From the NCBI RefSeq assembly GCF_006937785.1, contig NZ_SJEE01000001.1, positions 1 to 64,000 of the forward strand: DNA of 64,000 bases, in the 5' to 3' direction. Origin of the DNA: Pseudanabaena sp. UWO311 (GTDB lineage: Bacteria > Cyanobacteriota > Cyanobacteriia > Pseudanabaenales > Pseudanabaenaceae). The position numbers and the translations under genes are program-made. Positions within the stretch are counted from its first letter, which is position 1, and each line of letters starts with the position of its first letter. Shown here in pieces: positions 30,594 to 33,422 of this stretch. The notes beneath the pieces are model-generated. The model was not told the origin of the DNA. It ran no database searches and saw only the letters and a program-made list of their open reading frames with translations.

Positions 30594-31478
30594 CTAGCCT
30601 GAGTAGGAAATATAAAGCAGATGATCTTCTGCTCCTTTACTTAACGCCCAACGGATTGTCGTAAAGAACCTCGGATAGTTCTCTTTTCCATTATCAAAAT
30701 ATTCTGCGGCTAATTGCTTTTCGATTATAGTTGGATCAATTATTCCGTCATCATAAGAGTCAAGTTCTTCTTCTATTTTCTTAATTACCGCTAATCTCAG
30801 TGTTTTCAATCGCTCAACATTCAGCCCTAATGTTTGAATAGTGAATTGAGCAACTGCAACAGGAATGCCCACTTTCTCACAATTAGCTTCATCGGGTAAA
30901 ATTTCACCATCTTCCCTTTTAAAGCGAAATAATCTTGCTGTGGGTAGCTCTAGGGGATTTAATAAACGCCCATCAGGAACAAAATTAGCTTTGGCTTTAC
31001 CACAACAGGGATATTTGTGAGGTAATTGCGAATTATCAATATTTTCATCCTCAATAGCCCCTGGCAGCTTACAAACGGCTAACATATTTTGCCAATCAAG
31101 ATCATAATTTTGCTCACGGGTTGATTGTTCGCAGGGAATAAAATGCTCAACTGAACAAAATTTTTCTCGAATCCGAGTTTCACAATAAGCGCAAATGCCC
31201 TTTTGATCTGAGACTAAGGTGCTTTGAATTGCTGACTTCAGATCGGATTTTTTACTTGCGTGTTTGCCCCACTTTCTGAGTTGACTTGTATATCGTTGTT
31301 TATATTAGACTTAATCGGAAATAAAACAGCCAAAATGCCATCAAACTCTTATGCAGTAAGCATTTTATCGATTTCTTGGGTGTTTCTGAAAACCTTGTGT
31401 AGTAAGGCTTTCACTTATTTCCGATTAAGTCTATTGTGTAAGCTCATATGGCTCTGGGGATTTGAGGACTTTTTTCAT
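30594..31478 (-). pseudogene. ptuB: PtuB-like HNH endonuclease gene interrupted by a 128-bp insertion
   Basis: Reading from ATG 31478, which overlaps the stop of the ATPase gene (ATGA), gives MKKVLKSPEPYELTQ and then a TAG formed by the insertion. After it, the same frame resumes at 31304 with YKQRYTSQLRKWGK and continues unbroken to the stop at 30594. Joining the two parts gives about 250 residues with the usual PtuB start (PEP-ELTQYK) and an HNH core: ICAYCETRI, FCSVEHFIP, NYDLDWQNMLAVC. Such proteins (TIGR02646/Septu PtuB) cut nucleic acid during phage infection together with the ATPase PtuA. No ATG, GTG or TTG lies between the insertion and codon 31085, so a downstream restart would lose the HNH residues. 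The gene is probably inactive. Confidence 0.75.
31306..31433. mobile_element. Miniature inverted-repeat element inside ptuB
   Basis: A 128-bp segment with perfect 19-base inverted ends: TAGACTTAATCGGAAATAA (31306-31324) and its complement (31415-31433). The interior has no coding capacity. Two related direct segments, TATGCAGTAAGCATTTT and TGTAGTAAGGCTTTCAC, lie near its two ends. If the outer TA dinucleotides are a target duplication this would be an IS630/Tc1-mariner type MITE, but the exact target duplication cannot be settled: restoring the ancestral CAATAT frame requires removing 129 bases. Probably a deletion derivative of an insertion sequence. Confidence 0.75.
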
Positions 31479-32785
31479 GCATTAACTTTTCTCTGTAACC
31501 GATGGATTTGCATATCTGCTCTAATCAAATCAGGATCAAAATGTTCCCAATCCTGTAATCTGTCACGAAGCTGTTTTGCTTCTTCTAAGTTACCATTATC
31601 GATCGCATCAAAAAGTGCCGTTAATGTCCGTGATTCTTCAGTGTCTGGACGTAATTTTTCTAGTCCCAAAACATCACGCACTATGTCTGAACTTGATCTA
31701 CCTCTAGTTGGGGTAGGACATTCTTTGATTTGATAGTTTTCTAAAATTTTGACCTGATGACGTTCTACAGTGGTGACAATTTCGGGGCTATGGGTGGTGG
31801 CAATAATTTGCGTATTAGGAAATACTTTGCGGAGGTTAGGAATAATTTTTTGTTGCCAAGTTGGATGTAGGTGTAAATCTAGCTCATCAATCATTAATAC
31901 TGCTTCAGCTTCTAATGGGTTTTCCATCTGTGGGTTTGCCTGTGCTAAACGTCTTGCAAAGTCCATCACAAGGGCTAACATATTGCGATATCCTGAACTT
32001 AATTGGTTAAGCGATAGTTCAATTTTTTCGCCTGTTTCAGTTTCCCATTCAACCATAAGTTGTGCAGAAGCTTTTTGAGTAAAGTAAACACGAGCATTTG
32101 GTGCAATGATTGTGGAAATTGCTTTTCGTATTTGCCGTAAATCCGAAAGTTCAAAATTAATATCCCCTCTTTTTTTTCCTTCTCTCAGTTCTTGTAGTTC
32201 TCTCACAAAAAACCAGTTAGATAAATCTGTAAAATCTGCAATTGCATCAAAAGTATTTGTTAAAGCTCCAAATCTATCAAAAGATTGATTTGATAGATTG
32301 TCAAGATCGATAACATCTGTTAAATTGCGATTTCCTTTATAGTAGGCTACAAGAAACATTTCATATTGCAAATTATTTTTTAGTTCATTTATCTTTTTAA
32401 ATGAACTTGTTTGATTAGAGTAGTCACTATTATTCTTTCTTTCTAATCTTTTATTGTCATCATTATTAAATGGTTTTGTATATATAACTTGCCAGCTTTC
32501 AGAATCTGTAGCTGACACGGCAAACTCTACTGCGTTCTTATGAATTGTGTCATTTTTTTTGATTGGTAAGTCTCTTTGAAAAATTGGTGGTACATCGGAA
32601 AATATTGTATTTACAGGTTCTTGAAATTTTGCCACATAGGGGTATATAGCAGCAGCGATCGCATCTAATACAGTACTTTTACCAGAGCCATTGTTGCCAA
32701 CGAATATATTGACATCTGGATTTAAGTTGACCGTTAGATCTTCAAAGCATCGAAAGTTTTTAATCTGAACTCGTTGAATGTGCAT
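31475..32785 (-). CDS. ptuA: PtuA-like AAA/OLD-type ATPase (Septu defence system)
   Basis: A 436-residue SMC/OLD-like ATPase. The start IQRVQIKNFRCFEDL leads to Walker A VGNNGSGKST at about residues 30-39; the signature-like helix is in SLNQLSSGYRNMLALVMD; Walker B is AVLMIDELDLHLHP; a His switch follows in IIATTHSPEIV. The C-terminal block RGRSSSDIVRDVLGLEKLRPDT is the pattern seen in COG3950/PtuA proteins that pair with HNH PtuB. The next gene overlaps it by four bases and is PtuB-like. No reverse transcriptase is nearby, so it is not a retron-Septu. The toxin/antitoxin genes end 15 bases upstream and are probably cotranscribed. Confidence 0.82.
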   Translation of the reverse strand: MHIQRVQIKNFRCFEDLTVNLNPDVNIFVGNNGSGKSTVLDAIAAAIYPYVAKFQEPVNTIFSDVPPIFQRDLPIKKNDTIHKNAVEFAVSATDSESWQVIYTKPFNNDDNKRLERKNNSDYSNQTSSFKKINELKNNLQYEMFLVAYYKGNRNLTDVIDLDNLSNQSFDRFGALTNTFDAIADFTDLSNWFFVRELQELREGKKRGDINFELSDLRQIRKAISTIIAPNARVYFTQKASAQLMVEWETETGEKIELSLNQLSSGYRNMLALVMDFARRLAQANPQMENPLEAEAVLMIDELDLHLHPTWQQKIIPNLRKVFPNTQIIATTHSPEIVTTVERHQVKILENYQIKECPTPTRGRSSSDIVRDVLGLEKLRPDTEESRTLTALFDAIDNGNLEEAKQLRDRLQDWEHFDPDLIRADMQIHRLQRKVNA

Positions 32786-32800
32786 TTTGATTGTTTTTTA

Positions 32801-33211
32801 TTAAAGCTCAAGAAAAGCGGCTGGCGTGATGATTGGAATACCTCGAAAGGGATGTAAAACTAATAAATCGCGATCGCCTGATATCAAATAATCAGCTTTG
32901 CCATTTACGGCTAATTCTAGGAATTTATCATCTTTAGAGTCTCGACAGGCAATGACTGGTTCATTAATTTCAACTAATTCCGATTGTTGGGTAAGTTGAG
33001 CGATAAATTCTGAACGAATTTCTCTGTCTACATATTTGTCAAATTTTGGACGATTCATTACTTTTTGTAATTCTTCGATAGTAGCAACAGAAATCAAAAT
33101 GATACCTGAATGTCTAATTAATTTCACTACTCGGTCAGGAACTGATGAGGCAATGAGGATACTACTGACTAATGTATTTGTATCTATGACAAATTTTAGT
33201 TTAGATGTCAT
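32801..33211 (-). CDS. PIN-domain toxin
   Basis: A 136-residue ribonuclease-type PIN protein (the PIN_3/COG1569 group of toxin components). The acidic metal-binding residues are in FVIDTNTLVSS near the start, ELQKVMNRPKF in the middle, CRDSKDDKFLELAV, and YLISGDRDLL. It would cleave RNA when released from its antitoxin. The upstream small gene overlaps it by 11 bases, the usual toxin-antitoxin arrangement, and the PtuA-like gene follows after 15 bases. Confidence 0.87.
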   Translation of the reverse strand: MTSKLKFVIDTNTLVSSILIASSVPDRVVKLIRHSGIILISVATIEELQKVMNRPKFDKYVDREIRSEFIAQLTQQSELVEINEPVIACRDSKDDKFLELAVNGKADYLISGDRDLLVLHPFRGIPIITPAAFLEL

Positions 33212-33422
33212 CGCTCAAGATCTCGTCTAGGATTTCTTGGGTTAAGCCATTTACTTGTGCTTGTGCTTGCATTTCTTGAATGATTTCTTCTAGCGATCTC
33301 CTATTTATAAATTGTTTGAGTGAACTATTGAGAATAAGCTGCATTTTTTTTCGTTCCATCAAGTTTGCCTCTTGATAGGCTCTAGCAATTTCTGGTTCGA
33401 CTTCGATACTGATGGTTTCCAT
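33201..33422 (-). CDS. Probable antitoxin partner of the PIN toxin
   Basis: A 73-residue acidic, mostly helical protein: METISIEVEPEIARAYQEAN followed by a basic stretch ERKKMQLILNSSLKQFINRR and an acidic C-terminus ILDEILSDDI. Its size, position directly upstream of a PIN toxin with an 11-base overlap, and the VEPEIARAYQ start are typical of cyanobacterial antitoxins of this type. The N-terminal part may form a ribbon-helix-helix DNA-binding dimer that represses the operon. A GAGGT-like Shine-Dalgarno precedes the ATG. Assignment rests mainly on context. Confidence 0.75.
   Translation of the reverse strand: METISIEVEPEIARAYQEANLMERKKMQLILNSSLKQFINRRSLEEIIQEMQAQAQVNGLTQEILDEILSDDI

Follow-up and report, generated by a model that had tools for sequence, protein, structure and literature searches.

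Our analysis points to a chromosomal Septu locus (PtuA/PtuB) in Pseudanabaena that was recently inactivated by a MITE, a non-autonomous element of 126 bp lodged in ptuB, and we give this reading a probability of about 0.9. The locus lies in the window, by which we mean the whole stretch of 64,000 nucleotides that was analysed, and its features are collected in Table 1. In the course of events that we propose, an IS5-family transposase would probably have carried the MITE in trans into an ANT target behind codon 15 of ptuB, where the ATT would have been duplicated on insertion. The first codon into the insert is a stop, at which translation would end with 15 residues, and with no normal start ahead of the HNH core no nuclease would be produced. 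PtuA would still be made, but with its nuclease partner missing the defence encoded by this locus would be off.

Table 1. Features of the interrupted Septu locus, with positions in the window.
Feature	Positions	Strand	Basis
ptuA (Septu AAA ATPase, 436 aa)	31475..32785	-	Frame intact; PADLOC PtuA, NF041760 and PF13175 matches
ptuB 5' part, codons 1-15 (MKKVLKSPEPYELTQ)	31434..31478	-	Read from the sequence; matches the start of relatives' intact PtuB
Target site duplication ATT (ANT type), ptuB 5' side	31433..31435	.	Matching ANT duplications at 7/7 copies
MITE, 126 bp, 18-bp perfect terminal inverted repeats	31307..31432	.	Seven genome copies; ends fixed by target duplications and empty sites
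Target site duplication ATT, ptuB 3' side	31304..31306	.	Same duplication analysis
ptuB 3' part, 236 open codons	30594..31304	-	CAYC, EHFIP and NYDLDWQNM present; PADLOC PtuB, TIGR02646 and NF041761 matches
Longest normally started product from the ptuB remainder (163 aa)	30594..31085	-	CAYC missing, as are the catalytic H and N

The two genes are those that define Septu, a PtuA-type ATPase and an adjacent PtuB-type HNH gene. An earlier note, made from the DNA alone, had described them as overlapping by four bases, and the ATGA in question indeed combines the ptuA stop with the ptuB start, ptuB beginning at 31478 on the minus strand. The ATPase matches the PADLOC PtuA profile over its full length (1.9e-111), the NF041760 PtuA model at 6.1e-72, which is under the strict cut-off of that model, and PF13175 (AAA_15) at 5.8e-33. 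It is 67-73% identical to the PtuA proteins of eight other genomes of the genus. For the 236-aa piece of ptuB we find matches to PADLOC PtuB (2.4e-60), to TIGR02646 (8.6e-17, above the cut-off) and to the NF041761 PtuB model (6.2e-27, below the cut-off). What sets the window locus apart from other Septu pairs with the same two neighbouring genes is that its ptuB is interrupted after codon 15, and because of this interruption, which is due to the insert, the locus is a Septu pseudo-locus. The same PtuA/PtuB protein pair also serves as the effector of retron Ec78 (Eco7). Immediately before ptuA and in the same orientation, 32801-33422 holds a PIN-family toxin gene (TIGR00305) together with a small gene of 73 aa that lies upstream of it and overlaps it; the two are probably a toxin-antitoxin pair.

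The way in which ptuB is broken can be read directly. The gene reads MKKVLKSPEPYELTQ and then TAG, which bears out the stop after 15 codons given in the earlier note, and many further in-frame stops follow within the insert. Beyond the insert the frame is open again for 236 codons, from YKQRYTSQLRKW to 30594. Over this whole 3' part we find no further lesion, and the alignment with relatives shows that the catalytic motifs are kept. When joined, the pieces MKKVLKSPEPYELTQ and YKQRYTSQLRKW align to MKKVLKSPEPEELKIYKDNYITQFRKW and MKNVLKSSEPKELNNYKERYSTQFKKW of intact relatives with a junction free of gaps. This alignment comprises intact genes from the genus and the family (L030-L037) together with L029, which is without a start, and the insert is absent from the ptuB of all these relatives (L029-L037). 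Judged against their PtuB, the net gain is 129 bp, a multiple of three, and removing 129 bases restores PtuB just as the earlier note had calculated. The two observations that could have spoken against its proposal were not made: the joined protein does match PtuB in the comparison with PtuB and TIGR02646, and the ptuB of relatives is free of the insert.

The first in-frame ATG, GTG or TTG past the insertion is found at 31085, beyond EHFIP and NYDLDWQN. Since no such codon precedes the catalytic H and N in the remaining frame, the nuclease function of the window locus should be lost and the locus is predicted to be inactive; the early stop, the late start and the expected loss of catalysis had all been anticipated in the earlier note. 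The product that would begin at 31085 matches PtuB only weakly (3.2e-8). In E. coli Septu, defence is abolished when either the Walker motifs of PtuA or the H or N in the H-N-H motif of PtuB are mutated (PMC13096335), and in retron Eco7 growth is stopped by PtuA and PtuB only when they are co-expressed (PMC11555353). By analogy, the PtuA encoded by the intact reading frame in the window is probably harmless on its own.

The insert has the properties of a MITE, as it is short, contains no transposase gene, has perfect inverted ends of 18 bp (AGACTTAATCGGAAATAA) and occurs dispersed in several copies flanked by target duplications. Seven copies with 98-100% identity are present in the genome, and two of the others are identical to the one in ptuB. 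Matching 3-bp ANT duplications are present at all seven, and the empty counterparts (homologous or paralogous) of five other sites each show a gain of exactly 129 bp, in agreement with the value obtained for ptuB. A miniature insert with inverted ends had been recognised before, but the size given for it, 128 bp with 19-bp ends, had taken in one base of the duplication at either end. With 3 mismatches allowed, 0.22 chance occurrences of the 17-base core of the inverted repeat are expected in the window; the inverted repeat in ptuB is not a product of chance. Among 25 other genomes of the genus, two contain diverged copies (about 77-84%). The TA flanks apparent at all copies first suggested an IS630/Tc1-type element with TA duplication. 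This model was rejected: under it the gain would be 126 bp and excision would leave a stop in frame, whereas the empty sites indicate 129 bp and the ANT model fits all seven copies.

Other copies of the MITE also lie within genes. In L005 (G000:C42) a copy interrupts a dCache-HAMP-HisKA sensor kinase gene that is otherwise open, and in L006 (G000:C38) an otherwise open gene without a Pfam match, which has close relatives both in other parts of the genome and in the genus. The copy in L001 (G000:C50, 906-1931) is located inside a gene for a PD-(D/E)XK nuclease family transposase (PF12784). There the MITE sits in its one stop-free frame and adds 43 codons in frame, extending the open frame from 299 to 342 codons and leaving the gene unbroken.

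A candidate for the mobilising element is found in the genus. Five contigs of the window strain's genome (C10, C16, C21, C33 and C52) start with short stretches ending in repeats near-identical to the MITE ends. A search with the C16 stretch across the genus resulted in a complete IS, with two 1051-bp copies in G022 (L131 and L133), each of which has matching ANT duplications and ends near-identical to those of the MITE, and with one copy of 1049 bp in G009 (L130) that has non-matching flanks. The transposase of this IS matches PF13359 DDE_Tnp_4 (7.9e-25) and HTH_Tnp_4, and it hits the IS5 model NF033581 at 2.3e-23, below the cut-off. The MITE shares the 3-bp ANT duplication and the ends with this probable IS5-family element but is without any transposase gene. 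An autonomous partner with the same ends is thus present in G022, while the assembled genome of the window strain holds end fragments only, and a PF13359 search of the latter found a single transposase, on C26 (L129), without a link to the MITE. An IS that combines near-identical ends with the same type of duplication is a likely mobiliser, and we suggest that the MITE most likely owes its transposition, in trans, to an IS5-family transposase of this kind. We take ANT duplications to mark the ISL2 group of the IS5 family, which would make the candidate IS ISL2-like; our search of the literature found no paper stating that ANT duplication marks this group.

The window locus is not the only Septu locus of the genome. 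Two further PtuA/PtuB pairs with open frames are found in L135 (863-2835, C3) and L136 (942-2905, C13), so that Septu may not have been lost overall. Both pairs are strongly diverged from the one in the window (PtuA 32-37% identical). The closest relative, G018, which we infer to be Pseudanabaena sp. M085S1SP2A07QC, has the same flanking genes, namely aroE and a decarboxylase gene, whose coding DNA is 94-96% identical to that of the window where compared. Its homology to the window ends inside the HNH region; ptuA is gone there along with the beginning of ptuB (the 5' part), and no PtuA was found in the G018 genome at E <= 1e-40. The remnant of the ptuB 3' part in G018 (L062, 6740-7777) is fused in one open frame of 346 codons to upstream sequence that is unrelated and matches WD40 weakly, and the CAYC motif is lost. 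Synonymous divergence between G018 and the window is about 0.15 for the shared ptuB part and about 0.15-0.24 for the neighbours. This similarity suggests that the locus was probably inherited from a common ancestor with G018, and the simplest reading is that G018 and the window strain represent two separate losses of one locus.

It could be asked whether the Septu locus was already useless through old and gradual decay, so that the MITE would have inserted into a gene on which selection no longer acted. The different loss at the same place in G018 and the presence of two other open pairs would fit such a history, as would the somewhat relaxed constraint on amino acids in the 3' part of ptuB that both strains have, with a dN/dS of about 0.27 compared to about 0.07-0.1 for the neighbours. 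However, this ratio is still well below 1, neither ptuA nor the rest of ptuB has another lesion, and the catalytic motifs are retained. The undamaged frame and the identity of the ptuB copy to two other MITE copies support the recent insertion that the earlier note had assumed. The similarity of the copies dates the activity of the family only roughly, and the insertion is probably recent. We therefore consider decay before the insertion rather unlikely, but a fresh inactivation and a MITE arriving in a weakly selected gene are not sharply separated by these data.

The earlier note had also raised the possibility of a phase-switchable system, in which exact excision of the MITE in some cells would restore the ptuB frame and create a population in which the nuclease is on in some cells and off in others. 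If true, such a switch would enable a population to drop a costly defence and to regain it later. It is true that taking out the MITE with one duplication returns the frame of the relatives and that near-identical copies suggest recent mobility, but the MITE is present at seven unrelated sites, as expected of an ordinary MITE and not of a dedicated switch, and no dedicated recombinase was found, nor an excised allele in the one assembled genome of the species. A 3-bp duplication, moreover, makes spontaneous exact excision rare. We regard a switch as very improbable, and the alternative offered in the same note, a decaying system, fits better with the different loss in G018 and the two other open pairs. 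Even less credible in our view is residual expression, in which ribosomes would bypass or read through the structured insert of 43 codons, or use an unusual start codon, to yield some PtuB. The net insert is divisible by three, CTG and ATT codons exist in frame ahead of the HNH core, and the RNA of the insert folds strongly (-45.6 kcal/mol, z -7.5). This fold stems from the long inverted ends, however, and with covariation negligible and every Rfam family below threshold we dropped the idea of an RNA-structure role for the MITE. The many in-frame stops speak against read-through, and the same MITE is found in unrelated genes in other frames and also between genes. Inactivation of ptuB by a recent MITE insertion remains the reading that we prefer.

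Mobile elements are known to disable defence genes. Insertion sequences inactivate CRISPR-Cas and other defence genes (PMC10359306); those cases concern full IS elements and cas genes, whereas here a non-autonomous 126-bp element has entered Septu. In another cyanobacterium, Anabaena sp. 90, MITEs make pseudogenes (PMC3542288), and MITEs in microcystin genes are cited in PMC10969869. The Anabaena elements are likewise short repeats with inverted ends in several copies, some of them in genes, but no IS there has the MITE ends (type II), while here a probable IS5-family element does (type I-like). In the literature that we searched, no publication dealt with a MITE inside Septu, and nothing came up on a MITE in Pseudanabaena. 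The interruption of ptuB is real, well resolved and ordinary, affects one of the genome's three Septu pairs, and is a tidy new example of a known phenomenon rather than a new kind.

Its value lies in being a cleanly resolved natural case in which a small non-autonomous element disables a nuclease gene of an anti-phage system, and for which the empty sites, the target duplications and a candidate mobiliser could all be defined. The locus also carries a warning for annotation, as an intact ptuA together with profile matches to a ptuB fragment could be annotated automatically as a working system. Finally, the same Septu locus has been lost differently in two related cyanobacteria, which fits the easy gain and loss of such systems.
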